From NCBI RefSeq assembly GCF_024713945.1, contig NC_134681.1:1302001-1366000 (forward strand): a stretch of 64,000 nt of DNA. Direction: 5' to 3'. The position numbers were made by a program, and so were the translations under genes. The stretch is from Dermatophagoides farinae. Taxonomy: Eukaryota; Arthropoda; Arachnida; Sarcoptiformes; Pyroglyphidae. This document shows positions 3,129 to 50,504 of this stretch, in pieces (the first letter of the stretch is position 1; each line of letters opens with the position of its first letter). The notes beneath the pieces were generated by a model. The model was not told the DNA's origin and did no database searches. It saw nothing but the letters and a program-made list of their open reading frames with translations.

Positions 3129-6100
3129 CTATAACTAAAATTTTTTACATTTTAAAAAAAAATTATGAAATACCATAATAATAAAATCCAATGATCATCA
3201 TCGTTGGCTTTATATATCAATTATCAATTCTCAACAATGTGTACGATGTGCATCAACAACCGAAATAAAACAGTAAAAAAAATGTGAACAGAAAAAAATG
3301 TAATTTAATGTGTAGTGCACGCGATATCAAAAAAAAAATTGTACATTCAGGTGATGGATGAGTAAGTGATGGTGGGGACGAGTTGTGGTGGGGGGAAGTG
3401 AGGCAATTGCATACATAAAATGATGATTAAAAAAAAGTGTCAAAAGAGTAAAAAAACAAAAAAAAATAAAAAATAGACCATTGCTCTGATGCCTTTTTTT
3501 TACCATCTCAAACTACTCAAAATTTTCGACACCAAAGGTTCATCAGATTTTAATTTGTTTTCATCAAAAAAAAAATCTTTCCATTGAATTTACGCAATTT
3601 TTACCACACATATGTATGTGTGGATTTATGATGGTGGTGGTGGTTGTTTTCGGGGGATAAAAGCCATTCAGTCTAGTTAAGATTAGTTAGTTCTATAGCT
3701 AGCTGATAATTGATGATGATGACAATGGCTGTCATGATAATAATGATAATAATAATAATAAAAAAATTTCCAGTTAAATCTCATTCTGTTTATATTTATT
3801 TTTTTAAAAAAATAAAATACTGGAATGTTTGCCTGAACACGTACACCATATTTATATATTTATGATTGATGGAAATGTGTATCAATTTTTTTTTGTCAAT
3901 ATTTCATCTACATCAACATTATTGAATAGAAAAACAAACAAACAAACAAACATATGGAAATCTGTACCATTATCAACCGGGTCCGAAATTGTTATTATTT
4001 CATTTTTCATTGCTATTATCAGCTGTTAGGGGAAAAAAACATCCATATCATAAATAATCAAAGATGATGAGGATTGGGATTCGATGAAAAAAAAACGACA
4101 ACGATCCTTTTATTGTTGCTAACTAATTAAAATATTCAATAATGACCACATTGCATGTGCAGGATGACACATACACATATACAGTGTGGTCATAATCGTA
4201 GCCATTATCATCGTTATCATTATTATTAGGTTTTATTTTACAACATTGACAACAGACATAATTTGATATTACGTATTTTCTTTGAGCAAAAAAAAAAAAA
4301 ATAAGATTAAAGATTGAAATCAATAGCTGGAAAAAAACTTTTCATCATCTATGCATAAAGCTTGCGAATAATTTGGAGAAAAACAGCAAGAAAAAAATCC
4401 AAAATTCCAAGACAGGGACAAATGTGTAAGACCAAAAACGCAAAAAAAATCGGGTTAAACAAATCTTTGATGATGAAACAAAAAAAAAACAGAAAAATAA
4501 ACAACAATCACAGGATAGGATTATTAGGATTATTGCAAAGCATCCGTTTTGCTTAACCAGTAACGTGATGTGTGTGTGTGTGTGTGTTCATAACCAGTAT
4601 TTTACCTGGACAACTTATCGAATTTGAGGTCAAAAAAAAAAAGAAAATCAAACAAAAAAAAAATGACTGAAATTAAATACGTGATATATGGCACACGCAC
4701 GCACAAAATAAATGAAAATATGAGAATTCCATTTGATTATTAATTCCAGAGTATAATATTTGGCCTTCGACAACAACAACAACAACAACAACAACAGAAG
4801 CAGCAGCAGCCAGACTGATGATAAATAAACAAACAGAAAAAAAACCTATGAAAAGGTCACTGGTTCATTAAACATTAATGATGATTGTGATGATGATGAT
4901 GATGATATTTTGATAGAAGATTCTAGGCTACAACAAGTGGAAAAGAAAATTATTTTGTTTGATTTTTAGCTAAATCATTGCTCTATTTAATTCAATTTTT
5001 GCCTACTTTTGGTTACAATTTCATCAACCGGTTAATTCGTGATAAAATGTCAATTGATTAAATTATCATGAAGTGAAAAAAAAATTTTCAAAATAGTTTC
5101 CTATTGATTGAACGATCGATCGATATATATTATATATCAAGATTAATTGGCAAAAACAAAATTTATTCATTTCCAGAAACAAACAAAAAAAAATGCAAAT
5201 AATCAGGAAAAAATATCCTGTTTGTTTTGGTTGAAATCAAAATTTGAAATACATATAGAAAAAAAATTTATCAAGATCAAGGTCAAATCAAAATATAATG
5301 AGGGCAACAGCGGTAGTAGTAGTAGCAGCAGCAGCAGCATCGATAACAATCAAGCAAAAAAGAACCAATATCCAAAATTGAGAATCAAAATTTACAAATT
5401 GTCACATAATTCATTTTGTTTTTGTCAAATTGTGAAAAAACAAAATTTCAAAGAATAGAGAGAATTTTTTTCTTTTTGGAATGAACAAAAAAAGAATTTA
5501 GGTGAAGGTTTTGTTTGTCTGTTTTTTTTTTTTTTTTGGTTTCTTGAATTTCTGTTTATGTTAAAGAATAATTTTCAAAATTATCATCATCATCATCATC
5601 AAATGTGAAGAATTCGTGTTTTATGATTTAGCTCAATAAAAATATCAATTTGTTTTTCCTGTATGATTGACCAATGTATGAATAAAAATGGATGGATAAT
5701 CAAAAATCAGTATGAATTAATGAGCAAATGATGATGATGATGATGATGACAGATTACATAAGTGAAATTTTTGTTGTTTTTTTTCTGTCTGAATTTTTTC
5801 CTGTTAGAACCGTCTGTCGTTTGTTTTTTTTTTTGGCTTGTTTTGTTTTTTGCATGATGTTATTTACAATAAAATTATTAGAAGAAAAAAAAATCGATAA
5901 TGGCCATCATCAATAATTAATAATCAAATGTTGATGACTAGAGAATCTATGGTGGTGGTAATTGTTTTGTTGTTGACAAAAGGTGTGTATTCATTGTAAA
6001 ATCGTATGTGTTTATGTTTAAGCCAAAATGAAGAAATTAAAAATTTTTTGAAAAAAAAATGAATGATCAGAAGATGAGAGAGAGAGAGAAAAAAAAATGG

Positions 6101-6238
6101 AATATAGAATAAGGCTTAATGGATGAAAGTAAAAAAAAAGAAAAAATTTAAGAAATCACAAAATTTGTTTTTTCCTGTTTCTGTGTGTATGTATGTGTGT
6201 GTGTGTATGTGTGTGCGTGTGATTGATTGATTGATTGA

Positions 6239-6597: not shown

Positions 6598-7388
6598 TCT
6601 ATTTTTTTTTTTTTTTTTGTTCGAAGTAATGAGAAAAAAAAAGATTGAAAAATTAGAATTTTGGTTCAAGAATACAAACAACAACATCAACAAACTAAAA
6701 TCGGATCAAAAAAAAAAAAACATACGGAAAAATCTAAAATATCGGCAAAACACATTGCACAAATTTTGAGACAACAACAAACAAGAATCAATAACAAGAC
6801 AACAAAAAGAAATGAATAAATTCCGAAAAACATTTTTTGTTAAATCAATCAATATCGATTGAAAAAAAATGAAACTAAAACAAAATTAAATGTTGAAAAA
6901 ATAAATGAATTGAACGAAAACGAAACCAAAAAGAAAAAATAAATAAATAACTATTTGGTTGTCTAGGCATCAAATACACATACACAACATTGGCTAATAA
7001 TCAAGATTCATAATCTGGATTCTAACGATAACAACAAAAAGAAAAATTCACACTTTTATAAAAAGATTGAAATCAAAATTTTATCATCATCAGGATGATA
7101 TTAGAGAAACGTGGAAAAAAATTCAAATAGAAAAAAATGAAACTCACAATAAATTGTTTGGTTGTGTCCTGTTGTCTGTTCTTGATGATGATAATGTGTA
7201 TATGTAAGTGTGTGTGTGTGTTGTGACCGTGGTTGTAGCCGTTGATCAGATTCAAATTACATAACGAAATCTCCATCACATGGAATGTCTCAAATTTTGT
7301 TTTTTGTTTGTTTTTCTATGGCTTTCATTCAATGATGATTATTTGTATCCTGTAAATGTAGAGAGAAAAGGGGTTAATTTTTTTTTCT

Positions 7389-19322: not shown

Positions 19323-22300
19323 ATGATGCCCGGAGCTCATTCAGGGCAAACCTTAAATGATCGTCTTAATGCAGCACGTTATGCATTAGCCGGTCAAGGT
19401 TTAGCTCGTGTTGTTTGTAAAGCTACCACTGAAGAAATGATTGCACCGAAAAAGAAACATATTGATTGTAAGTAATTTATTAATTATTTATTGATTGATT
19501 CATTTAAATTCTAAAAAAAAATCATTTTTAAATGAAAACAAAAAATAAATAGATTTATTACAATGTACTGATGAACCAAACGTATCGATACCTCAATTGG
19601 CCAATCTATTGATTGAACGTACACAACAATCTAGTTGGGTTGTAGTGTTCAAAGCATTGGTTACCGTACATCATCTTATGTGTTATGGAAATGAACGTTT
19701 TACACAATATCTTGCATCAAGTAATTGTAATTTTCAGCTAAATAATTATCTGGATAAAGCAGCACCAAAAGGTTATGATATGTCAATATTTATAAGACGT
19801 TATGCACGTTATATTAATACAAAAGCACTTTCATATCGTACGGTTGCTTTTGATTTTACCAAAGTCAAACGAGGGTATGTTTTTTTCATTGTTTTGTGTT
19901 TTTTTTTGTTTTTTTTGTTTGGTTTGTTTGTATAATTTTTTTTGTTTGTTTTTTTTTGCTATCCATTGGTTAGTGATGAAGGTCAATTACGACAGATGGG
20001 TATGGAAAAATTATTGAAAACAATACCTGTATTACAGACACAGATCGATACATTATTGGAATTTGATTGTAATGCAAATGATTTAACTAATGGCGTTATC
20101 AATGCAGCATTTTTTTTGCTATTCAAAGACATTATTCGTTTATTTGCATGCTATAATGATGGTATTATAACGTGTTTGGAAAAATATTTTGAATTAACAA
20201 ACAAAAAAATGGCACGTGAAACATTGGATATTTATAAAAAATTTCTAACACGTATGAATAAAGTTGGTGAATTTTTAAAAGTAGCCGAAATGGCCGGTAT
20301 TGATCGTGGTGAAATACCTGATCTAACTAAAGCACCAAGTAGCCTTTTAGAGGCTATGGAACAACATTTGGCTGCAATGGAAGGTCGAAAACCAGGGTAA
20401 TTTTATATTTGAATTGAACAAAAAAATAATAATAATGCAAACATTTTAAATTAATTTAATTGCAAAAAAAAAAAATAAACTTTCAAAAATTATAGAACAA
20501 CATCAAATGGTGATAATAAACCACCAGTGGATGAACAAACGACGGTGAAAAAAGCTATTGAAGAAGAAGAAAAATTCCTTAATAAATTAAAGGTATTTTT
20601 TTTTGCCCGATGGATTCTATATATGTTCATGTTTAACACTAAACTAACTATACTTAATCTGATTCTATTGAATTTCTTTCTTTTTTTCTTGCTTGCTATC
20701 CATAAATTCGTTCATTGTTTCAGAACGAATCTTCGGAAAATTCGGTCAGTGTTTGTAAAGCTTTTGTGTGTGTGTGTGTTTGAAGTCGGCTTTGAATTTC
20801 AATTTCCTTTTTAAATATTCTGTAAAAATGGAATTTTTTTCTATTTTGTTTGCTCATTTTTTGTTTTGTTTTTTTTTTTTTTTTTTTTTTTTGGTTTTGA
20901 TCAAAAATTTTTAGGAAAAACATATTCAAGAGAAAAAAGTGAACAATCCATTTTTGGCAATATCCAGTGGTGGTGGTGGTGGTGGTGGTGGTGGTAATAA
21001 AAATGAAAATTCTAATCAAGATGAATTGGCAAAAAAATCCAATGATATGATCGATTTATTGATGGATGGCGGTAGTAGTGGTAATAATAGTGCTGAAAAA
21101 ACATCAAATGCTGATCTATTCTCATTGGATACAAATGCATCATCATCATCGGCAATGGCTGCCAATAATCCATTTGCCGATATATTAAGTTCATTGAGTA
21201 TTACACCGGCAAATAATGCCACTTCTTCAGCAACTACTACAACTAGCGCTGGTGCTGGTGCTGGTGGTGGTGGTGGTGATGATTTTGCTACATCCGATGG
21301 TTTTGCTGCTGCATTCGGAACTTCCAGTAATTCCAATATTGGTAATGTTAATTTATAGATTGATTCGAATATTAATTTTTTTTTTTGGTGTGTTTGTGTG
21401 TGAAATTTTGAAATTTTTTTTATAATTTCTAATTTCTAATCAAGAAAATTAGGCTATTTTGACAGAATGATTTTTTTTTTTAGTTGATTTTTCATATATT
21501 TTTTCTTTTGATTGGCGGATAGTTTGGTTGGCGGGTTTTTTGTTTTGTTTTGTTTGGTTTGGTTTGGTTTTGTTCACCACAATTTATTTTAGCTTTTTTT
21601 TCTATTCCAAAAAAAAAACGAAGAAAATCATTTCACAATTGCACAAAGATTTATTTTTCCATTTTAAAGAATTAGATTATTACAAAACACTACCATCATC
21701 ATACAATGAACACCACAATGACAAACATAACATTCATAAACAATTTGTGTGTGTGTGTGTGTGTGTAAAAGTGAATGGAATGATTCTTTTTATTCTTTTT
21801 ATTGTTTTTTTTTGTTGTTTATCCATTGGATTCAACGATTTATTATTGATCATCATCATTTTTGTTTGTTTTTTTTTCTCTCATCATTATCCATCATCGA
21901 ATCAAATCACAATTTGATCAATTTTATTTTCCTCTATTTATTGTATTCAACTAACCATCTGAATCTTTTTTTTTCTCTTTCTTTATTATATTCCATATAT
22001 ATGTATATATCTTTTTAATATGTTCTCTATAATAATTCTGGAATTCTTGAAACACGTTCATTGGTTGTTTACTATTGATTTTTTTTTCTTCTTTTACTTT
22101 GGTGCATTATAATGTTCAACATTCGTTTTTTTGAATTTTTTTTTCACTTTGTTTTACAATTGTGTGTATGTGTGTGTGTATATGAATATGAAATGATATA
22201 AATAGTGAAAGCACCACCAGTCATGACCATGTATCCAGGTATGTGAATTTTTTTTCCCTGGTTAAATTTACACATATATATGATATATAAAAAAATCTTC

Positions 22301-22736: not shown

Positions 22737-25478
22737 CTATTTTCTATTTCCTTTCAATTTTCGTTTGATGAAAATGCTTTCACTAAAATTATTGCGATTT
22801 GAAAACTCGTTGTTGTTGTTGTTGTTGTTTTACACGCACACGTACACACACACGAATAGAATCAACAACTAAAAAATCACCTACTATTGATGGTAAGTTT
22901 TTTTTTTTTTGCTTTTGTTGTTGATCATCCGTAGTATGTTTTACCAGTAGTTGTAGTATATTCGTCCTTTTCCTTTATTTTTTCTTCATTCCAATTATTA
23001 TTGGAAACATGAAGATAATATATCTGATATTTTTTTTTAAATTCCATTTAATCGTAAAGATCGAAATAAAGGTGGTAAAGCACCAATACGACCACCACCT
23101 CCACCTGCTTCTGCAGGAAAAGATAATGATGATAATAATGATGGTGTAACCACTCCAAGTCGATCAAAACAACCACCATCACGCCCACCTGCACCAACCA
23201 CATCATCATCATCATCATCGTCATCGAAAACAACGACACCATCGACACAGCAAGCACAACCATCATTTCCAGATGTTGCTGCTGGTGGCGATCAAGCCCA
23301 ATTACAACAACAATTTCTTCAATTTCAACAACAAATGATGCAACAATTAATGCAACAAGGTGGTGCTGGTGGTGGTACCGGTACCAATACTACAGATCCA
23401 TCACAAATGATGGCTCAAATGCAAATGATGATGTCGCAGATGATGAATAAAACTACAGCAGCTGATACTACTAGTGCTACTACCATAGATTCTGATTCAA
23501 AATCGAATGTAGAAAAATTATCGGAACAATTGGATGATAAATTACGATCAGAAAATGAAGATTCAAATTCAACAAAAACACAAGAATCACAAGAAATAAA
23601 AATAGATGATTCAGATGTCAATTAAGACATTGACATTAACATATATGCGAAAATATCGACTGACTGATCTAAATAGATGCCTAGCGAATTTCATTAATAA
23701 TAATAATACTCATCTTCATCATCATCTAATAGATCCATCCATTATATACTCATCATTATCATCATTTAAATTCCTCCATAATATTTACAAAATCACTATC
23801 TTCTTCATCCTATCTGTGTGTGTGTGAATGTGTGTGTGTGTTTGTAAATTTCTTCTAGAATATTCTTCTAGTGTGTGTATGTTTGTGAAACTCAAAAAAA
23901 AAAATGAAAATTCTCATTATGAATAGCTGTGTACGTGTTTCGATAAACCTGTTTTGTTTGTTGTTTGTTGGATGTTAAATACATACACAGACACACACAC
24001 ACACACACTCACGAAAAAAGAAACGGAATTTATTTTTCATTTTTTAATTTTAATTTTCGATTCTTGAATTTTTTTTACGAGAATCAATGCTTGCTTGCCT
24101 GCTTGCTTGTTTGCTGGTGGCTAGTTGTTACGTTTGTTGTCTTTGTGTGTGTGTGTATGTGTGTGTTTATTAACTTTGAATTTTTATTTTTTTTTTTTTA
24201 ATTTTTGTTTATCGTTGCTGCTGTTTGCTTTTTTGTTGTTGTTGTTGTCGTTTTATTTTTCACATAGTGCACTAATATTATCCATATATAATACACCCAC
24301 ACACTCACACCTAGATTTTACATATTTATCCTTATTTAAAATGATTCATAATGATGATTTTTTTCAGGAAAAAAAATTAACTTTGGATTTTTTTTTCTTT
24401 TTTTTTTGATTTTTAAATAATCATTGTTTAATGGCACACACACACATTTATATTTAGGTTTCGATGCATTCGGTGATGTATTACAGCCACAGAATGTTAG
24501 TACATTGATACAGAATCAAAAATCATTGATGAATTCAATCGATATGACCAATAATAATAATGGTTTCAACAATATGTTCAACAATCATATTAATAATAAT
24601 AATCATATAGTGCCAACAATATCTTCCTCAACAACAATAATGCCGTCATCAACGACAACACTTTTATCATCATCAACATCCACATCATCATCAGTGCCAA
24701 CAAGTTCCTCAAATCCAACAACTGGTATACTAGTTAAAGGTGATCTCGATGCTACATTAGCTAGTTTAGCTCAAAATCTTGATATCAATGGTCTCAAAGG
24801 AGCTGGCAACTATAAAAGGTTTGTTTTTGTTTTGTTATGAATTTTCAATATTGAGCATCAGTTTTTTTTGTTTATTAGGGGACAACAATTTAATCCAAGT
24901 CCAAAAAGTACAATGAAAACTGGTGGTGGTAGTACATTATCATCATCATCATCAACAACAACAACAATGAATGGTACTAATGGTGGTGGATCAATATCAC
25001 CATCAATGATGATGAGAAATACATCAACAGCGGCTAATTGGAATCGTCCATCTATGATAATACCTCCATCATCATGGGCTACAACAACATCGGTTACAGG
25101 ATCAACGCAACAACCAGCCATGATAATGCCAATGATTGGTGGTGGTATACCATCAACAGCATTATTTGCTGCAGCCGCTCAACAGCAGCAGCCACAAACA
25201 GCAACAATGATGATGGGCAATTCATTTGCGGTATGAAGAAAGAAAAAAAAATAAAAAAAAATTTGACATCAAAAATTGATTGATCCACTGTTCTTACATT
25301 ATTTTAGATACGACAACCATCAATGATACCCGGTGCCGTACCTATATTGCCACCAACTGTGAATGCATCCACATTGTCCAGTATATTGGCCGGTCAAAAA
25401 ACAACAACAACAAACACTACTACTACTAATAATAATAATAATAATAATTCATCAATCGATCCATTTGGGGCACTTTGA
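19323..25478 (+). CDS. lap: Clathrin assembly adaptor, lap/PICALM (AP180 family)
   Basis: Endocytic adaptor that binds PI(4,5)P2 and clathrin and helps retrieve SNAREs at coated pits. Core exons: 19323-19467, 19553-19874, 19974-20396, 20496-20592, 20915-21341, 24458-24818, 24879-25230, 25308-25478; phases close to 765 residues. The first about 290 residues are the ANTH domain, with the lipid-binding KATxxxxxxPKKKH signature near residues 33-46 and the conserved [17 protein letters not shown] and [12 protein letters not shown] blocks. The C-terminal half is unstructured, with NPF (NNPFLAI, NNPFADI) and DPF (IDPFGAL) endocytic motifs, [10 protein letters not shown] and [14 protein letters not shown], the last two as in PICALM. 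The start ATG follows an A-rich leader (TCAAAATGATG). Several phase-compatible alternative exons lie between 20592 and 24458 and are listed separately. If the donor at 21341 is ignored the frame stops at 21358. Confidence 0.92.
20724..20744 (+). other. lap: Candidate 21-nt microexon of lap
   Basis: Between core exons ending at 20592 and starting at 20915, both at phase 0, a strong acceptor (TTCATTGTTTCAG|) is followed after 21 bases by a donor (|GTCAGT). The 21 bases encode NESSENS and keep the reading frame. Inclusion would add seven polar residues just after the ANTH domain, before the NPF-containing tail. Confidence 0.5.
22206..22238 (+). other. lap: Candidate 33-nt cassette exon A of lap
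   Basis: An acceptor (ATATAAATAG|) and donor (CCAG|GTATGT) bracket 33 bases. They enter and leave in phase 1, the same phase in which the preceding lap exon (ending 21341) leaves. In frame it reads [11 protein letters not shown], which keeps the frame. The donor is good; the acceptor is moderate. Confidence 0.4.
22693..22737. repeat. (CTTT)n tract
   Basis: Imperfect CTTT tetranucleotide array within the lap intron, upstream of candidate cassette B. Confidence 0.85.
22860..22892 (+). other. lap: Candidate 33-nt cassette exon B of lap
   Basis: A second 33-base open segment, phase 1 to phase 1, reads [11 protein letters not shown]. It has a strong donor (GATG|GTAAGT) and a weak acceptor inside a CA-rich tract (CACGAATAG|). 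Same size and phase as cassette A. Confidence 0.35.
23060..23625 (+). CDS. Alternative terminal exon of lap, or an independent nested exon
   Basis: A plus-strand frame of about 188 codons opens behind an acceptor (T-rich tract then CGTAAAG|) in phase 1, matching the phase leaving the upstream lap exon, and stops at TAA 23623-23625. The peptide has a proline patch ([13 protein letters not shown]), a Ser run, a Gln/Met-rich stretch ([20 protein letters not shown]) and an acidic end ([11 protein letters not shown]). No domain is recognised. If spliced to lap it replaces the FDAFGDVL...DPFGAL tail. It could instead belong to an unrelated nested gene starting at the ATGs in cassette A. Confidence 0.5.
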
Positions 25479-26194: not shown

Positions 26195-26219
26195 AATTAA
26201 TTAATTAATTAATTAATTA
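26195..26219. repeat. (AATT)n array overlapping the FITM stop
   Basis: Self-complementary AATT units; the FITM stop codon TAA lies inside the array, so slippage here could change the C-terminal residues. Confidence 0.8.
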
Positions 26220-27274
26220 CATAATGAATTAAGAAAATGACAACACCAAACTGTCCATATGAGTGATATTAATTTTTCAATGGTTGTATGATAGAAAAAT
26301 GCCGTCTGTAATAGAATTATATCCCAGATTATTGATACGAAACGTGTGAATAAATAGATAAACAGACAGGATTGATCGAACCATAAAATTGATTTCGATT
26401 CATTTTTTCGGTTCATTGATGGTTTTTGATTAATTGTTTTTGTATCAATCATCGAATCGATTTTTGATTTGTCAAATTGTTCATCTTGAAATTGTATAAA
26501 ACGTGGATAAAATGCAATATCATCGACTTGATGTTGATGATGATGATGAACGTGTGATCCAAATTCTTTACGAGCCAATTCAATTTCATCATTAATTATT
26601 ATTTGTGGTTGTTGTTGTTGTTGCCGATGTTGTTTTTGTTGCCGTCTTCGTCGCCGTAGATATTGTCGAAGGAAACGAAATTCTTGTTGTAAAAATAAAT
26701 TAGATAAAATCAATACATGTACATGGCCACTAATATCAAACGAATGGCTTTCAATATTCGTTAGCCATAGATAAAAATCATAAAATTCTTGTGTAGTATA
26801 CCAAATCATTATAAACATTGTCAAACGTATGAATTTATTGCTAATATAATTTCTTAATTGTATGTCAAGCTTTTTAGTAGTAGTGGTTGTTGTTGTTGTT
26901 GTTGTTGTTGTTGTTGATTGTTGTCGATGATCAAAATGAATTTTACAAATAATTGCACACGATATGAATGTTAAACAAATATGTAACACGAACGTTAAAT
27001 ATGGCCAACCAGATTTAACAAATAATTCATGTATTAGATTTGGATTTGAATATTTCAAACATTTCAATTGTGTTTGCCATAATTGAAAATCGTGTATTAA
27101 ACCACCGGTCAATATGATGACCAAATATAATAATAATCGATGATAATGATGATGATGTCGTTGATTATAGTAATGAACATCATGATTAAATCGTTGTTTT
27201 TGATTATTTTGATCAATCCAATAGTATTGGTCCATTTGTAAACAACAACCATAAACAAGCTGATGATGATTCAT
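26213..27274 (-). CDS. Fat storage-inducing transmembrane protein (FIT family)
   Basis: Single-exon ORF of 353 residues starting at a true ATG. FIT proteins are ER membrane proteins needed for lipid-droplet budding and act as acyl-CoA diphosphatases. The family signature is visible: FVKSGWPYLTF near 85-95, FDISGHVHVLILSN near 178-191 carrying the first catalytic His, and FYHTTIEKLISLIWTVW near 326-342 carrying the second. Hydrophobic segments occur near 46-60, 92-112, 147-170, 180-195, 302-325 and 333-348. Two insertions are unusual: a Thr run near 121-133, and a long Arg/Gln/His-rich cytosolic-type loop (about 205-295) between the two histidines, where human FITM2 has about 60 residues from His to His and this protein has about 145. 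The paralogue (FITM1 or FITM2) is not assignable. Confidence 0.82.
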   Translation of the reverse strand: MNHHQLVYGCCLQMDQYYWIDQNNQKQRFNHDVHYYNQRHHHHYHRLLLYLVIILTGGLIHDFQLWQTQLKCLKYSNPNLIHELFVKSGWPYLTFVLHICLTFISCAIICKIHFDHRQQSTTTTTTTTTTTTTKKLDIQLRNYISNKFIRLTMFIMIWYTTQEFYDFYLWLTNIESHSFDISGHVHVLILSNLFLQQEFRFLRQYLRRRRRQQKQHRQQQQQPQIIINDEIELARKEFGSHVHHHHQHQVDDIAFYPRFIQFQDEQFDKSKIDSMIDTKTINQKPSMNRKNESKSILWFDQSCLFIYLFTRFVSIIWDIILLQTAFFYHTTIEKLISLIWTVWCCHFLNSLCN

Positions 27275-27869
27275 ACAATTTAAAATTTTTATTCATTTGA
27301 TGATGATGATTATTATTTTTTTTTTTTTTTGTTAATCTTTAAAATTTCAATTTTATTTTAATTTTTTTTCAAACAAATGAAATAAATCAACAACAACAAC
27401 AACGGCGACGACGACAACGACGACGACGACCACAACAACAATGTGTTCACAATCCAATACATCCATCCATTCAAATTTAATGTTAAAAATTGTCATTTTT
27501 TCATCCTAATCATGGTTGATTTTTGTTTTAGTGTTTCGTGTGTGTGTGTGTGTGTGTGTGCGTTTATGCGTATTGGTGTTAAAAATGCAAATTTTTTTTC
27601 AAACTTACTAACTTATACTTGTGTCAATGTCAAAGTGTATTTTGTTTTGTTGAAAAACAAAATGGATAAGAAGAAAAGCATTTTTTTAGTTTAGTTTAGT
27701 TTTGGTTTTCATCATCATCATTTTTAAAATTAAATAAATTTTTTTTTGCTGTCTGTCTGTCTGTTTCAATGTGTAACGTGAATGTCAAATATTTTGAATC
27801 ACATCTAATTTCATTTCATTTCATTCTATTAATAATGCATATGATGATTATGATGATGATGATGATTCT
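27275..27869. other. Intergenic, FITM promoter side
   Basis: About 0.6 kb with CAA/CGA repeats (27388-27440), a (GT)n array at 27538-27561 and no coding signal. Upstream of FITM and downstream of the malic enzyme, both on the minus strand. Confidence 0.6.
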
Positions 27870-40038: not shown

Positions 40039-43000
40039 TCACCATTCACTTGGATAATTTATATGTACGGGCATCGGTAAACGACGATGTGGATATGAAC
40101 TATATGAACGATGTCTTGATGAACCTTGATGATTTGTTTGATGGCTACGACTTCGTAATGAATGATCAGAATGAGCTCGATGTGTATGATTTGCCGCTGT
40201 AGATGGACGTGAATTTGGTTGTTGTTGTTGTTGTTGTTGCTGTATCAATGTTGATGATTGTTGTTGTGTTGATATATTTAATGGATTATGATGTGTAGTG
40301 AAACCATTTACTGAACTTCGACCATAATTAATTGCCGAACCAGGACCAACAACACCTCTTGTTGTATCACTAAATGGTGTTGATGAATGGCCACGTCGTT
40401 GTTGTTGATTATTATTAACAATATTATTTTCTACACCACCAACACCATCCGGATAGCCATCATGATGATAATTATGATGTCGATGATTATGATGGGTAGC
40501 TGATAATGATGGCTGTTCATCGATTGTATAGATGTCATCATTGATAAGATCAGAAATTTGTCGTCGTCGTATCAATGCATTATCACTTGATCGTGATCGA
40601 ACTGAACCGGGAAATTTACCGCTTACATTTCCATTTGTTGTAGACTGATCAATGGCTGCTATGTTTATCGATGTTGATGATTGTGCCATCCAATTCGTAC
40701 GGTTATTATCCATTACAGGTGGCTGTGATATTGGATCAATAATTTTATTGATATTTATACTTGAATGATGATGTGGATGTGGATTATGTAAATGATGAGG
40801 TCCTTGTGGTGGTGGTAATGATGATGATGGTTGTAGTGGTGGTTGTGGTTGTGGTGGTTGCTGAGGTTGTGATGATGTTTGTTGCTGTGATGTTGTATGA
40901 TGATGAGCAGAATTATGATTACGATTCAATTTGGACGATGCAATTCGTGAATCAATCACAGTGATAAGATCATCTTCAAAATTCGGTAATTGATGATTCA
41001 TGCAGCTAGGATCATTAGCTCGTTTTCTTGCTATTTTATGACCTTCAATACCGGGATCAAATTGAAGTAATACGTATATCTGAATGGAAAAAAATGAATA
41101 TAAAGGGTTAATTTAGTCTTTACATGTAAAACAACAATAAAACACACATACCAGATCAGAACTATAAAGAGTCATTTCAATTGGTGGATTTGTAATCACA
41201 TAACGTTTATTTGAAGCATTATCAGTCCATTCTAGATCACGATAACGTGATATACCGATACAAAGCATACCATAGGCACGTAATGCTTCAACAAATAAAT
41301 CACCATATTCACCACCATTACCATGTTTAGCTAATGGACCTTCATTCAATGATATCTGTCCTACACGACAACGATCACGATTTTTTAATGTTTCACTTGT
41401 AGAATAACCTCCACGTAAACCGGCACCTTCAGCTAATATAAGCTCAAGTTCAGGTGTAGCACCACCTGTAATCAATGATCGAATTAATGTTAATGCATTT
41501 GCATTGAAATATGTTGTTGACATCAATGAATCCAATACGGATACGGCAAATGCTGTGCCACATGCAAATGGTTGTGTTAGATATAATTCCGTATCCGGAT
41601 CATCATCATCATCTTGATCTAAGAATTGTACATTTGTATCATTCACTAATTCAGTGATTAATGGAACTCTAATCAGAAAAAAGTGAAAAAAAAAATTAAA
41701 ATTAGCACAATAATTTTAAACTAAATATATAATAATAATTTCATCAACAACAAACCCTTTTTGACGACCATCGGAAACATCTTCATTTGGATTCCCTAAT
41801 GTATCATCAAAAGTCATTGCTTTTATATTTAAACTGGCCAATATAGCTTCTTTATCCGCTAGATTTGGATCATCTGATGATGGAATTTTTGCTGATAATA
41901 TAACACACATATCGCATAGATTAATATTAACAGCACGTAAATCAGCTCTGGATAATGGTGATCCATTTAATACGCTGATTTTTGGTAAATTTTGTAACAT
42001 TTTCCATTCACGACGTAAATATTCAACATTTCCAACAATAACAACATGTTTAAGCTCATGATATTGAAAGTTTGATGCTCTACATAGAAAAACAATGCAT
42101 GAATGGTTTAAAAAAAATAAAATTAGCAATTATTTGTTGGAAATAAATCTTCTAGTCATAATCATTACCTCAATGGCATAACTAGATTACGTAAACCGAT
42201 TAATGGTGAATCTGGATCGGCAAATAAACAAACGACAACATGTCCATTTAATACGGTCATTGCAGCCTGATTACGATCCAAAACACAATCTTCAATCAAT
42301 TTGGCTGGACACCAATGAAACATTCCGGTTGAATCATATTTCATTTCAGTACGATCAAAATCAAATTCACTATCTTCAAATCCCATCATATCGGGTCCAT
42401 TTGCAATACCGGTTGTACTTAGGCCGAATGTTTCTGGTTTAGCAGCTGTAGGCCTGAAAAATAATAATTTTTTTTTTTAGAGAAAATCCATGTGTCAGTA
42501 ATAATAATAATAATAAACTTACATTAATTTTTTAACTTCATATGATAATCGTGCCAATTGTGTATCAGTATATGGTAATGCTGATGATGAACGTTGTTGT
42601 GGATCTGATGGATCTGATGTACTAGTAATACCACCAAATGTAACACCACCGGTTGTATTACGTTGATGATGTTCATATGGTGTTGTACCCGAAATATAAT
42701 TGGATAATGATGATTGTGCACCAGGATTCAGGCCATCACGATTTTCATCATAAATATTTGTATAAAGATCATTCGTTGACATATGTACCATTGAATGTCG
42801 TTGTTGTTGATGATGATGATGATGATGTGATCCAGATTGTGGATGATGTTGTTGATGTTGTACACGATTAGTATTAGATAATTGTTGTCCACCGGGAATG
42901 GAATTATTATTATTATTAACAACTGTTGTTGAATCACCAAAACCACCAGTAGTAACGGATGATCCAGTAACGATAGCTGGAGCTGTTGCTGATATTTGCT

Positions 43001-46000
43001 GATGTTGTTGTTGTATTGATTGTGATGGATAATGGCTTGCCGGTGGTGCTGTATGTGGATGATATATATCTGTAACAATATCATCAGGATCATCAACATC
43101 AACATCAACATCAACATCATCATCAACATCAACAACATCATCATCGACAACAACAGAATCAGGATTATTCTGAGTATGATAAGGCAATAATAAAGGATCG
43201 GTTTGTGTAAAATGGCGTTGGTGCTGATAGTGCTGATGTAATTGTTGTTGTTGTGAATGGTGCATTCGGTGTTGGTTACTATATATACTATGGCTATGCT
43301 GATATTGTGCTAATTGTTGTTGATGCAGATGTTGTTGTTGTTGTTGTTGATGATGATATAATGATTCGTGCTGCATCGGATATGATGCTAAACGTCTTCG
43401 TTGAAATGATGGTTCTGGTGTTATTTGTCCATCAATATTAATATCAATATCTTGTGGATGATGATGATTACCATTGTTGTTTGGATCATCAACATTAACG
43501 TTGATCAAATGATGTCCATGTGGATGATGATTTAATGAACTTGGCGGTGGTACTGAATATGAATATGGTGGTGGCACAATCATTGTTTTTGCTGCTGCTA
43601 CAGCTGTTGATGATGAATTTGATATAGCCATATTCATCATTGATGATGATGTACCATGACGATTTCGTAGTCCATGTTGATGATGATGATAACCGCCATT
43701 TGATAATTGTGGACAATTTATCGTTTGTTGAGGTAAAATGGTCGTTTCAAAATTATTATAATGAACTTGATGATGTAATAATGATGATATAGGCGGTGGT
43801 AGTTGTTGTTGTTGTTGCTGTTGTTGTGGCACTAAAATTGGCTGTGTAAAAGGCGTCTGTTGTACTGATACTAATCTTTGTTGTAGTTGTTGTTGTTGTT
43901 GTAACGGGTTGGTCATAGATGTTGTTATTTTTCCGCTTGTCGTTGATGATAATATGGGTAGTTGTGTTGGTGGTGGTGGTGGTTGTACAATATATTCCGG
44001 TACTTGATGAGCAATTTGAACTAATTGGTTTTTTTTTGAATTCAAATTTTGATTGTAGACACAAGTGCAATTGATATTTTTATGATTCAATTTCAATGCG
44101 TTTGTGTGTGTGTGTGTTTGTTGCATTTGTACAAGCATAATTCAACAGCAGCAGTAGCAGCAGCAGCAACAACAACAACAACATGGAAAAACAAAAATCA
44201 TTGGTGATTGGAAAATGAAAAATGTTAGTGAATTAAATGATAAAAATCAATAACAACAACGACAACGACAACAACAACAACAAAAAACAGACAGACAAAA
44301 AATATGTGAAAAAAAGAGAGAAAAAAAATAGAATAATGAAAAGCAGCAATTAGATTTTTTTTGTTTACGTTTTGTTTTATTGATATTTTCAATTTGTGTA
44401 TGTGAATGTGGATGTGGATGGATAAGTGTTTGGAATAGGAATTGGAAAGAATTTTCACAAGAATCAAGCAATAAATAGAATGCATAAAACTAAAAAAAAA
44501 AAAAACTAAAAGCATGACATTTGACATTTGATATTGTGGGTGTGTGTGTGTGTAAGTGAAAAAATTCAAGAATAATAATAATAATAAAATGATGATGATG
44601 ATGATGATGGGTTATTGTTTCCAGAATGGAAAAAAATAAATTTCAACAAAAAAAAACAATTTATAATTACCTCGATGTTTACGTGTACTGCGAGCAAATT
44701 CAACGATTGAATGTCTGGGCAATACGTTTCCTTCATCTGATTCATTGTGATGATTATTAGTGGTGGTTGGAAGAAGAAGAAGAAGAAGAAGAAGAAGAAA
44801 AAAAAATGCGAAAAAATGAAAAATTTTTTTTCTCTTTGAAAATCAAATGGATTACATACACATACGACATTTGCATTTTTTAATCACTTTTTCATCTTTG
44901 ATATCAGCATGACATATTTTACAATACCATAATGCTCTGTGCAATATAGAGAGAGAGAGAGAGAAAGTGTGTGTGTGTGTGTGTGTGTGAATCAGTAAAT
45001 TAATTCAATGAATTTATGATTGAGGAATCCAAAAAAAAAAAACAAAAACAAAACAAAACAACAAACCTTTTAACTTCATCGGCACTTTGTGCCATAAAAA
45101 ATCCTTGCGTTTTTCCCTGAATACGTACAAAATTTGATTTCGGATTAATCAATATATTTGAACCAGTTTCTTCGGTTTTATCTGGTGATGATATTTCTAT
45201 TGCAATTAATAATAATTTAAGTTTTAAAAAACAAAGTTCAGCTGCTTGTGGAAATGTCATATATTCGAATGCTGGACTCAGATATTCAGTATACATTTCC
45301 ATTCCAGTACCACAAAGATAATCATTTTGCCATGAAGGCATATCAGGTGCCTATGATGTGAATAAAATGAGAGGAAAAAAAACCGATATGCAAATGAGTA
45401 ATAAGTCATCATCATAGTCGTCGTCGTCCTCGTTATACCGTATTATTATTATTATCAGTAGACAATTATCATACAATTAATTAATATTATGTAAGGTTAT
45501 GCTTTCACTTTTTTTTTATTCGTTTTGTGTTTTTTTTTCCTTTTTTCTTTCTACAAATAATTCACCAAATACACATACATATACACATATATATGATATA
45601 TATGTAGATTATAAATGATTATATTTATATTGGTAACAAGAGCAACAACAAAAAAAAAGATTGAACAAGACACAACCCATACCGTAGAATAATAATTATC
45701 ATAATGAATGAATGAATATAACACGGTGGTAAACAACAAAAAAAAATTCACGTATCACATACCGTTTTAAATGATCGCATAGCAAATAAATTGGCCAACA
45801 TTGTTGAAAATCCCGGTGCCAGACAAGATTGAGCAATGAAACCAAGTTTAAGTTCGCTTACACAGATTACATCATCACCTGGAACATAATAATATGGAAA
45901 AAAAATTGACCAGAGAATAAAAAAAAAAATTTCAAGACTTTCAATCAATGTATGCATGTGTTTGTGTGTGTGTGTGGTCAGGAATTTTTTTTTATTTTAT

Positions 46001-49000
46001 TTTTGCTTGCTTTCTTGTTGTTTAGCAATTTTTTGTTTCGTTTACAACAAGATCCAGACATATATCATGAATGAGTGTTAACGATATGGATCATTAATTT
46101 AATGAACAGAAGAGAGATTTTTATTTTGAGATGTGTGTCTGTTGTGTGTGTATTTACATGTTTTTGGTGAAAATAAGAAAAAAAAAATACTAGAGAACAA
46201 TTTCCGTAACAAACAAAAAAAAATGTCGGTTATATTACTACTGGATAGCTGATGAAAATATTGAAAGGGTAGTGTTGTTAGTGGTGTATTTATATTTTGC
46301 ATTTATCTAGATGATTCTAGAATCTAATATCATTGGTGCTGCTGCTGCTGCTGCTGCTGTTACTGGATTTTTATACTTCTGTTTTTCTAGTTGACTAACC
46401 GGCTGACTGACTGACTGACTGACTGATTGACGGAATGGTGGAATGAATGGATGGTTTATATAAAATTAAATGACTAGCCTGTATGGATGGTACTGGATTT
46501 TTATTTGTCATCATCATCATCATCATCATCATTATCATCGTTGATAATTGTAATAGAAATGACTACGATAATGACAATCGACCAAAAAAAAAAAAATGGA
46601 AAAAAAGCTTAATTAAATCTTCATCATTTGTGAATGAATGAACAGGACACACCGATGACACTCGAAACGGAGAAAAGCAAAAAAAAAAAAGGAATATAGA
46701 AATGGAAAATGGAAAATAATTTGATGATGATTTCGAAATATATGTTGTATGGATAGAATAATTTTTTGTTCTTATATACAAACCTCTTTTCCAATTCCAA
46801 GATGGAATATTAAGTAGATAGGCCTTGTTATGGTACTGCATTAGTTGAATAATCACCTATATATATATATGGAATGAATAAAAAAAAACGAAAAAGAAAC
46901 AGAATATTGAAAATGAAGTATAAAACATATGAAATTTTTAAGAAGATTGACAAACAAACAAAGAACAGAATGTTTTTTCGATTTTTTTTTCTCTTCTTCT
47001 ATCTCACGTTTTGAAATATCTATATCATCAATTTGATTATGAAATTTCGACCAACAAGATTTCTGGTATTTTTTTTTGTAATATTTATGATACATACCCG
47101 AATATCATCGCTATAATTTTTTATTGAAATAACACGCATTATATTTGCTGCATCTTCTGCATCTGGATCTTGACAATATTTATTGGCTAATACTAAACAT
47201 GCATCTGCATCATATACTTTTACACGACTTAAATCGATTGGATTCATCACAGAACCTTGAAAAAATTCAACAGTTGTAAAATGACGTTTTATTAAACCTT
47301 CTAATTCAAGATCCGGTGGTTTACGATGTAGAAATACAACTTCAACATCAACATCTTCACGATCTTCATGTAGAAAATCTTTGAGAAAATGGCTAACACT
47401 TTCATAGGTTATATGACCACAGACAACGATATGTCTTGAAAATGAATAAAACAAAAAAAAACGATTAAAAATCATGAATTTTGTTAAAAATCCAAATATG
47501 GGAAAAACAAAAACAATAAAACAAACAAACCTTCTTCGTTCGGATTTAAATGTACCCGAATATTTTGGCCTCGATCCAATAAGATCAATAATTTCCGGTA
47601 TACAAGAGGCAAATACGGCCAAACCGACCAGTATAAATAAAACAATAAATGTACGACCCAAGGTTGTTTTACAATGTATATCACCATAGCCAACCTAATT
47701 ATAATTTATTATAATTAATTACCATCATCATCATCATCAACAACAACAACGAATCATTTAATCGATTAGTCAGAAACAACAACAAACAAACAAAAAAAAA
47801 AAATTCTAAACTAGCTTACCGTAGACATGGTGACAATAAGAAAATAAACACAATCCCAATAGGACATATAATGGCCATTACGAAAATCCAATGGATCACC
47901 TGAATTTTCAAGCTACATGAAACAAAAACAAATAAAAACAACAACAACAAAAAAGAACAATTCAATCAACATATTGACATTTAACAAACATATGTTGAAC
48001 AATAATGATCACAAAAAGAGAGAGAGAGAGAAGAAACAACAAAATTTAATCATCCTAAAATGAGATATGGTCTTCATTTCTGATTAAACATTTGATTTGT
48101 TAGGTGACAAAAAAAAACCAATGCCAAAGCTATTTGAAATGTTAACAACAACAACAACCACAAGAATCTAGAAAATGAAATGAATAATTGTCCTCATCAT
48201 CATCAATGACGATTACGATGACATGTTGACACGCAATAGGAATCGGAATCGGATCTTGTTCATAAGTGTGTGCGTGTATGTGTAATCAAATTCGAACAAA
48301 ATAACCAGATCAATTTAACATATTGAAATTGAAGGAAATGTAAAAGGTACATGATGGTTTTTATATGAAAAAAACCATATTTGACCATATCAAAATGATC
48401 ATTGTTGATTTGCGTGATGTAATAATAATAATAATATATAGCATCTATATTCTACATGGGATTTCAAGAGAATATTCTGTCATTTCTGTTTTTCTGTTTT
48501 CTGTTTTTTTCTGGTTTCATTGGATCACAACTGGAAATCAAAATAAAACTTACCAAATGTATAAGACCGGCAGCCGTTAACCAAACACTAACAACAATTG
48601 AAATTAATTGAGCCAAACGTATTGATGATGATGTTTTTAATACATTTAGATATTGTAAAATATCTGGAAATGACATTAAACGAAGTGCACGAAGAAAACG
48701 TAGACCTAAAATTCGGATGCAATGATGATTGAAAATAATTATCATTTAAAAAACAAAAACAAATACAAAAAACATACCGATCCAGGTTCGATCAACATAA
48801 ATTGAAACAAATGAAGGCGGTATCGTAAAATAATCGACAAATGAATAAAGCTCGAGCATAAACCATAATTTATCTGAGGCAGCTATGAACTAATATATGA
48901 TGATGATGATTTGAAATTTCCATTTGTTTTTTGTGTTGATTTTGTTACATAAATAAGAAATATTATTCATCAATAAAAATTATTTAACCGAATAAATTAT

Positions 49001-49442
49001 GCAGCAAAAAACAAGAATAATAACAAGAAAAACAAAAACAAAAACAAAAAACACATACTCTTATGAAAAAATAGACCATAAAGAAAATGTTTAATGCCAA
49101 ATCAAATTGTTGTGTAGCATTTTCATTCCATTTTTGGCATTTTTCAACATTGTCACTATAATGGCGAAAGAAATAAAAAAAAAAAAAGAAAGAAACAAAT
49201 GACAATATAGTTAGTATTTCTTCTTCTGTTTATTATTATTATTCATTGAATAATGAATGAATTAGATGATGAGAATATCACCATCATAATCATCATAATC
49301 ATCATCATCAGATTGAAATAAATACAACAAGAACAATTGACTAGCATTATAAGTAAATGAATCCAGTATATAATAAAAACTTATGGAATAAAAATCAACA
49401 GAAAAATTCTCTTTAAAAATTATTTTCCATTTTCTTTCTTCA

Positions 49443-49487
<45 letters not shown>

Positions 49488-49691
49488 TTCGCAACATTTT
49501 GACTATTCAATTATGTAAATGATGATGATGATGATGATTATATAAATAATAGTTATTATGAATAAATTGCCCGCGTCTACCAGAATATCAATTGCATTTA
49601 TTCATCAAATATTCTTATGAATTATGAAATTATTCTGTTTTTATTGTTTTTTATTATAGGGAAGAAAATTTTTTCTCTAGCTTACATTTTT

Positions 49692-49727
<36 letters not shown>

Positions 49728-50504
49728 AAAGAAAAGAATTTTTTTTCCCCAGTATGTTTTTTTTTCATAAAACTTACCCGATTCCTGGCGGACCAGTTCT
49801 CGATGCATCAATAAAATAAATGATAAGCGATGCAATTGAAAGTAAAAATACAAGCACAACCTATGTGGAAATAATGATTATTAATTAATTTATTGATTGT
49901 GATTGAAAAAAAAGGATTAAATGATTAACATACCAAAATACGACCAGTAGTCGATTGACCTGAAATTAATTCACCAGCCCAATCTTTTGCTTCAGCAATC
50001 CAACCAAGATCTTGATTAAAAAATCCAACCGATTCTTGATTCTGAAATTTCAATTGTCCAGTACTACCACTACTGGTTTGTGGATGATGATGTGGACCTT
50101 GATAGACACCGACACCAGCAGCACCATCACGTTGATTTGTATTCTGTTGTTGTTGTTGTTGCTGCTGCCGTTGCTGCTGTTGTTGATATTGTTGTTGATT
50201 ACTTTTCATATGATCAGATCTTGAATTGGAACTTGAGAATAGAAATTCAATCAATCGATAAACCAATACGATGAATATGCCTAGATTCAGGAAATTGGAT
50301 ATTTATTTATTATAGATATATAGCAATGTTTTCAAAGAAAAAAAATAATAATTTACCTGCCAAAAATGTACAAATACTGGACAATAGAAATGCCCACCAT
50401 TTTCTATCCTGTAGACAAAGTGCTTCTTCAGGTGAACGTGGTGGATAACTACTGTACATTGTACTATCCCGTATCTGATATGGGTTTAGATAATTTGATG
50501 ACAT
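40039..50504 (-). CDS. slo: Large-conductance calcium-activated potassium channel (BK, Slo1)
   Basis: Voltage- and calcium-gated K+ channel subunit of nerve and muscle plasma membrane. Nineteen coding exons: 50357-50504, 49934-50280, 49778-49860, 49059-49155, 48778-48889, 48554-48705, 47820-47912, 47531-47694, 47098-47434, 46784-46856, 45763-45878, 45067-45350, 44866-44936, 44671-44736, 42523-44020, 42169-42453, 41756-42079, 41152-41668, 40039-41079. All phases close, giving about 1,935 residues; most Slo1 proteins have 1,100-1,250. In order: S0 ([18 protein letters not shown]), S1, S4 (LRFLRALRL), filter TVGYGD near residue 344, RCK1 from HIVVCGH near 399, linker, RCK2 from FHWCPAKL near 1255, calcium bowl ([13 protein letters not shown]) near 1430, and [19 protein letters not shown]. 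The extra length is an S0-S1 Gln run, about 500 residues of Gln/His-rich RCK1-RCK2 linker, and a roughly 320-residue Ser/His/Gln-rich tail. Confidence 0.95.
42523..44020 (-). other. slo: slo exon 15: giant low-complexity linker exon
   Basis: One 1,498-base exon encodes about 499 residues, almost all Gln, His, Pro, Asn, Ser and Asp runs (for example [13 protein letters not shown], a VDVDD acidic run and several poly-Q/poly-H blocks), then ends YEVKKLM before RCK2. It enters in phase 1 at a rather weak acceptor (CCAATTAG|TT, A-rich upstream) and leaves in phase 2 at AAT|GTAAGT. The frame is open throughout, which for 1.5 kb of AT-rich DNA supports coding. The exact 5' border is the least certain splice site of the gene. 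Confidence 0.8.
44671..44736 (-). other. slo: slo exon 14: 66-nt symmetric cassette at the STREX position
   Basis: A 66-base exon, phase 1 to phase 1, reads [22 protein letters not shown]. It follows directly after the IKKCKC motif that ends RCK1, the site where vertebrate BK channels insert STREX. Its loss would keep the frame. A (CTT)n array on the minus strand lies just upstream of its acceptor (AATCAG|A). Confidence 0.7.
44770..44800. repeat. (GAA)n / (CTT)n array before slo exon 14
   Basis: On the transcribed (minus) strand this is a CTT array about 34 bases upstream of the exon 14 acceptor, so it can serve as an extended polypyrimidine tract. Confidence 0.85.
44949..44989. repeat. Compound (GA)n(GT)n array before slo exon 13
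   Basis: On the minus strand it reads (AC)n then (CT)n ending 12 bases before the exon 13 acceptor (ATTGCACAG|A at 44936). CA repeats and CT tracts next to a 3' splice site are typical binding sites for hnRNP L and PTB-type splicing regulators. Confidence 0.85.
46857..46870. repeat. (TA)n tract at the slo exon 10 acceptor
   Basis: The last bases of the intron before exon 10 are an alternating TA tract ending TATAG|GTG, in place of a normal pyrimidine tract. Confidence 0.7.
49447..49485. repeat. (GT)n microsatellite in a slo intron
   Basis: About 19 uninterrupted TG units between slo exons 3 and 4; CA repeat on the transcribed strand. Confidence 0.9.
49693..49726. repeat. 34-base poly-T in a slo intron
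   Basis: Long T homopolymer (A-run on the transcribed strand) 52 bases past the donor of slo exon 3. Confidence 0.85.

Follow-up and report, generated by a model that had tools for sequence, protein, structure and literature searches.

What occupies the space between the two calcium-sensing RCK domains of a BK channel when a single open stretch of about 1.5 kb lies between their exons? The question is raised by a 64,000-nt segment of the mite Dermatophagoides farinae (G000:C5:1302001-1366000, contig NC_134681.1; hereafter the window), taken from a genome of 62.4 Mb in 22 contigs. Proteins resembling group-2 mite allergens likewise point to a mite-like source. On the minus strand of the window, a slo1 gene, encoding the BK channel alpha subunit, spans approximately 40039..50302 as far as its exons were seen, and its linker between RCK1 and RCK2 is interrupted by the long open stretch at 42523..44020. 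We argue that this stretch is probably a coding exon of one of two functional slo1 genes, encoding a disordered, low-complexity linker arm of some 500 residues. The variability and disorder of this linker in BK channels are already known; the sister gene and the odd 3' splice site of the exon are the new and more interesting part.

The exon boundaries put forward in the original prediction proved exact. Positions 42523..44020 of the minus strand delimit 1,498 nt with 498 whole codons, ending in LSYEVKKLM, within a stop-to-stop open reading frame (ORF) of 540 aa (44141..42519, minus strand). The coding frame contains no stop, whereas the other two frames hold 16 and 47, and an opening of 498 codons in any frame was absent from 2,000 second-order Markov sequences made from the exon, the longest of which reached 249. 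The G+C content of its 5' and 3' parts (0.359 and 0.361) falls within that of four slo exon stretches (0.32-0.39) and above that of eight intron stretches (0.17-0.31), and 87% of its third codon positions are A or T. With splice matrices built from 17 donors and 18 acceptors of the window slo1 and its sister, the 5' splice site GTAAGT (42517..42522, minus strand) scores 8.37, the reference donors ranging from 2.8 to 11.8, while the 3' splice site AG (44021..44022, minus strand) scores -4.34, the reference acceptors ranging from -1.4 to 12.3. The exon is entered in phase 1 and left in phase 2, both neighbors fit, and the flanking introns measure 650 nt before and 69 nt after. Upstream lie the exon that ends RCK1 and carries the CxxCH motif (44866..44936, minus strand) and a putative 66-nt linker exon of phase 1-1 (44671..44736, minus strand), called from its splice sites and open frame. 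Downstream, the exon at 42169..42453 (minus strand) encodes the final 37 linker residues (PTAAKPET...RTEM) and the start of RCK2. Splicing 44936-44866, 44736-44671, 44020-42523 and 42453-42169 yields 639 open residues that lead from the end of RCK1 into RCK2. It had been proposed that the long exon joins the end of RCK1 directly and in phase to RCK2; the phases do fit and a direct join stays in frame, but the symmetric 66-nt exon probably stands in between. On this sequence evidence, and with every splice join predicted, 44020-42523 is likely a genuine coding exon, and its inclusion in the mRNA as a whole is likewise likely.

The identity of the gene was established from its ORFs, its matches to BK chains in the PDB, the Slo-like_RCK family and an exon-by-exon match with a second slo1. 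In a Pfam search PF22614 is present at both RCK places, with 128.6 bits for the RCK2 protein, and the pore segment VGYGDIHC with its GYG filter, the Ca bowl DQDDDDDPD and the CxxCH motif were all found. The nearest solved structures are BK channels (7pxe, E=5e-102, followed by Aplysia and human), with KCNU1 (4hpf) at E=9e-41. An RCK2 query found no relatives in collections of prokaryote genomes and viral contigs. By these matches the window gene is a BK/Slo1 alpha subunit despite its long linker, and linker size does not define the family.

The predicted product of the exon is of low complexity, composed mainly of Q, H, S, P, T and N (Q 14.5%, S 10.2%, H 9.8%, P 8.8%; Q+H 24%). It matches no Pfam family above the cut-off, and the mean hydropathy of the linker, 0.397, lies under the 0.427 order/disorder (Uversky) line, a crude measure, so that the insert is probably disordered. 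The earlier proposal of a Gln/His-rich insertion of about 500 residues between RCK1 and RCK2 is supported. Other sequences share the richness in Q and H: each of the two residues makes up 9.4% of the gene's C-terminal tail (340 residues), and one of 21 ORFs sampled, all of 300 aa or more, reaches a Q+H of at least 20%. Within the linker, QRRRLASYP resembles what we take to be the consensus of a basophilic kinase/14-3-3 site, a match that could have arisen by chance.

Measured from KCKC to KYDSTG in the spliced model, the linker of the window slo1 has 559 residues. The same measure gives 54 and 112 in two human structures (6v22 and 8z3s), 85 in Aplysia (5tj6) and 132 in fly (7pxe), these lengths being arithmetic from aligned positions with gaps assumed absent. 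The linker is longer than in all BK chains compared. In vertebrate BK, the 58 extra linker residues of 8z3s relative to 6v22 also lie between RCK1 and RCK2, an insert that we take to be STREX, an optional cassette. In contrast with such a cassette, the mite exon adds about 500 residues and is not a multiple of 3, so that skipping it shifts the frame. The Drosophila Slo linker lies at the same place in the same channel and is also long and disordered, yet it has 132 residues against the 559 of the mite; residues C631-E777 are described as not resolved in an excerpt of the structural report (PMC8660915). Partial texts on BK channels give a linker of about 100 residues (PMC4319557) and, in a figure legend, 100-200 aa for a somewhat wider region (PMC12346439), and the view that the mite linker is unusually long for BK holds against these values as it does against the measured 54-132. 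No BK linker of comparable length was found in the titles and abstract openings of the literature on linker and splice variants, and no papers were found on mite slowpoke splicing, dust mite slowpoke or slowpoke duplication in Acari. The insert takes to an extreme a linker already known to be variable; if translated, it would make the longest RCK1-RCK2 linker among the BK channels compared here.

A second slo1 (BK) gene with its own linker exon set is located in the same genome at about 755320-764047 of G000:C7 (L003 320-9047). The cores of the two genes share 525 of 571 residues, and both carry the Ca bowl, the GYG filter and the CxxCH motif. Because dN is 0.066 and dS 0.79 over the 571 codons (NG86; dN/dS about 0.08), and with no stop in the core codons of the window gene, both cores are, by this estimate, under purifying selection, and neither gene looks like a pseudogene there. 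At the place corresponding to the long exon, the sister has an exon of 262 nt (L003:7080-7341) with the same phases 1/2, and the two exons end in LAYEVKKLM and LSYEVKKLM, respectively, with eight of the last nine residues in agreement. The window exon looks like a grown linker exon, the counterpart of the 262-nt exon of the sister. The sister linker also holds a probable His/Ser-rich exon of about 453 nt (5745-6197) and a candidate 30-nt microexon (6811-6840), and amounts to 124-285 residues depending on exon choice. As read from the two sequences, the linker has diverged fast while the cores of the two genes hardly differ. A possible extra exon of the sister, with no clear donor, lies at L003 5104-5211 in a linker intron, behind a 285-nt run free of AG.

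If the exon is translated, the segment would form a flexible arm exterior to the gating ring. The two RCK domains would pack in the usual way, basic calcium and voltage gating would be near normal, and the arm would mainly offer regulatory or docking sites. Such a channel would provide a natural test of how strongly gating depends on the covalent connection of the calcium-sensing layers, the sister gene serving as a matched shorter version.

An unusual feature of the exon is its 3' splice site, which is preceded by an AG exclusion zone of 467 nt (44023..44489, minus strand). CTAAY occurs in this zone at 330 and 205 nt from the acceptor, and a 21-nt pyrimidine tract at 308 nt; UCUC is found solely near 300 nt, and nine TGC lie no more than 150 nt from the acceptor, mostly in one CTG repeat. 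We scanned AG-free runs on both strands of the window, of 24 kb around the sister and of 200 kb taken as 20 genome stretches (288 kb overall). No AG-free run of the window's minus strand exceeds the 467-nt zone, which ranks third of 18,167 in the whole scan; in the 200-kb sample, with 12,938 intervals, the longest run is 321 nt. Leaving out the sister microexon, 25 of the 26 other acceptors of both slo genes have zones of 24-153 nt and one a zone of 361 nt. The zone of the candidate sister microexon measures 502 nt, its own AG included, and of the three longest AG exclusion zones in the 288 kb, two lie in slo1 linker introns, one in each gene. The 66-nt window exon (44671..44736) ends in RKHR, resembling the RKFR end of a sister-gene exon, and by these ends the intron leading to the long exon corresponds to that before the sister microexon. 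The four longest runs have 500 nt (sister microexon), 484 and 432 nt (window plus strand) and 467 nt (linker exon). Those of 500, 484 and 432 nt are followed at 30, 33 and 33 nt by donors scoring 9.8-11.3, under a matrix that includes the sister microexon's own donor; a donor of at least 6 within 60 nt follows 1,604 of the 18,167 AG intervals (8.8%). The acceptor of the linker exon is an outlier in common with the candidate microexons. A microexon starting at 44020 was considered and discarded: the exon's first 150 nt offer four GTs, none of which scores above -3.8.

These properties recall a class of neural exons in fly. The Srrm/eMIC-dependent exons described in PMC8797185 lie behind long AG exclusion zones and 3' splice sites of extreme weakness, with CUAAY sites and UGC motifs; their median length is 31 nt, their 5' splice sites are weak and the introns on either side short. 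The mite exon resembles these Srrm234/eMIC exons in its long AG zone and very weak acceptor and less clearly in its CUAAY and upstream UGC, and differs from them in its 1,498 nt, its strong donor (8.37), the 650-nt intron before it and in not being skippable. In human, exons with AG zones of at least 100 nt show more cassette splicing, according to a partial text of PMC1431707. Given so weak an acceptor and so long an AG exclusion zone before it, the use of the exon's 5' end may be regulated, with less assurance than for the exon itself, by switching between 44021 and in-frame AGs further downstream. The long form would then be the neuronal one, and in other cells the exon might start at one of those later acceptors.

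Several observations weigh against reading 44020-42523 as a grown linker exon, included whole and with a regulated 5' end. The acceptor at 44021 scores under all 18 reference acceptors. Since 1498 mod 3 = 1 and the phases are 1 and 2, simple skipping of the exon breaks the frame, and regulation would therefore need alternative acceptors. The PDB BK matches reach the linker ends only, the interior of the exon matching no PDB BK chain. That interior is also unlike the sister: the best protein alignment, shared end included, scores 53, a value reached by 20 of 1,000 shuffles, and at the DNA level the last linker exon of the sister scores 40, which the best of 200 shuffles also reaches, and owes this to the shared end alone. 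The homology of the two exons thus rests on place, phases and shared end. Long AG-free runs also occur in other contexts. Among the 16 runs of at least 300 nt, a donor of at least 6 within 60 nt follows four; among the 12 that come after the four longest, there is one such donor (at 20 nt, not a multiple of 3). Moreover, an ordinary conserved sister exon, DSVEKC (L003 1603), lies behind a 359-nt AG-free run (zone 361 nt), its window counterpart at 49155 having a zone of 64 nt. A long AG-free run by itself does not mark a microexon, and only the very longest behave in this way. Finally, an internal donor at 43288 (4.24) and an acceptor at 43048 (5.02), both within the reference ranges, form the best internal pair and would remove 240 nt while keeping the frame.

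This last observation leads to the most serious alternative, in which the stretch is partly or mostly intronic, or rarely included, the exon being entered at an internal acceptor (43831, 43450, 43309 or 43048) or losing the intron 43288-43049, with a shorter linker as the outcome. The in-phase internal AGs score 2.8-5.0 against -4.34 at 44021, and the corresponding sister exon has only 262 nt. However, G+C is at exonic level in the 5' and the 3' part of the exon alike, and neither part has an in-frame stop, against 14 and 29 in the other frames of the 5' part. The four internal acceptors are unremarkable, their AG exclusion zones measuring 21-89 nt; ahead of 44021 there is no AG for 467 nt. 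We consider this alternative rather unlikely, though worth keeping in mind, and retain the coding exon as the preferred reading.

How, then, might a coding exon of this size have arisen? An origin by transposon insertion or recent duplication was discarded, given that the exon DNA occurs at full length only once in the genome; 85 further matches were listed, with 40 of 41 candidates scored, all of them at most about 95 bases long and mainly confined to its repeats. Tandem repeats detected by TRF cover 329 of the 1,498 nt, so repeat growth accounts for part of the exon only; growth was probably due in part to triplet-repeat expansion in an exon tolerant of length. A more specific scenario, which we offer as a doubtful conjecture, is that a neural microexon turned into a giant exon. 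The ancestral slo1 would have had a 30-nt microexon behind an AG zone of about 500 nt, as kept in the sister; in the window copy the donor would have been lost, and the single AG of the zone would now open the 1,498-nt exon, with an absorbed intron and triplet repeats. A match of 16 in 17 nt to the candidate 30-nt microexon of the sister is found inside the exon at 42929..42945 (minus strand), in the same frame (GGT TTT GGT GAT), and its score was reached in one of 2,000 Markov sequences, two of 2,000 codon shuffles and one of 240 genomic chunks of 1.5 kb. This suggests, at the sequence level, a microexon swallowed into the linker exon, the 17-nt match being a possible relic. Aligned with the sister intron 6841-7079 the exon scores 24 (null maximum 33), no better than shuffles, and the two AG-free zones aligned together score 28 against a null maximum of 50. 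Because neither alignment beats shuffles, the idea of an absorbed intron finds no sequence support beyond the 17-nt match. If the scenario is true, a switch built for about ten residues would add up to 500 disordered residues to the gating ring, in neurons. The two long zones in paired linker introns offer a testable case for a tiny regulated exon turning huge.

The original prediction had also suggested changed calcium or pH gating, and in a stronger form the His/Asp-rich arm would act as a sensor, binding protons or divalent metals and so altering the calcium or pH response. The linker does hold 52 His and an Asp/Val repeat, and BK channels sense protons via histidines of RCK1, as stated in part of PMC4319557. 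But composition is the sole pointer to a sensor, and such composition recurs in the C-terminal tail of the same gene and in one of the 21 sampled ORFs; the Asp/Val stretch and a His6 run coincide with hexamer and triplet repeats at the DNA level, and the Ca bowl, the pore filter and the CxxCH motif are present. We regard a sensor as improbable, and the suggestion of changed gating did not gain support. That the stretch is an assembly error or belongs to a dying gene copy is highly improbable, for although the region is rich in short tandem repeats and the window RCK2 is slightly further from fly Slo than that of the sister (342 bits with a 192-aa query vs. 355 bits with a 188-aa query), the frame is unbroken over 498 codons, the core has a dN/dS of about 0.08 with no stop, and the assembly holds a single full-length copy.

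Slo channels are insecticide and antiparasitic drug targets, as noted in an excerpt of PMC8660915, and for this reason their isoforms are of practical interest. Elsewhere in the same gene, the 340-residue C-terminal tail (40039-41112, minus strand) is Gln/His/Asn-rich; the tail of the sister, of which 111 residues were seen, is Gln-rich and not His-rich. On the plus strand of the window, the AG-free runs of 432 and 484 nt, the two longest of that strand, precede candidate 33-nt microexons at 22206-22238 and 22860-22892, respectively. Both have good donors, are open in the phase-1 frame and lie near an exon for an ANTH domain (AP180/CALM-like). At another locus (L019, G000:C2:4911252-4911329), a frame with an SRRM_C (eMIC) motif was identified (SRSRSPSIPRRKGSPSFLEKRRIT), and judging from this motif a microexon splicing factor, SRRM with an eMIC-type C-terminus, is probably present in the genome. 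Finally, a long ORF at 26213-27292 of the window (minus strand) matches the FIT (fat storage-inducing transmembrane) family and includes a poly-Thr run.

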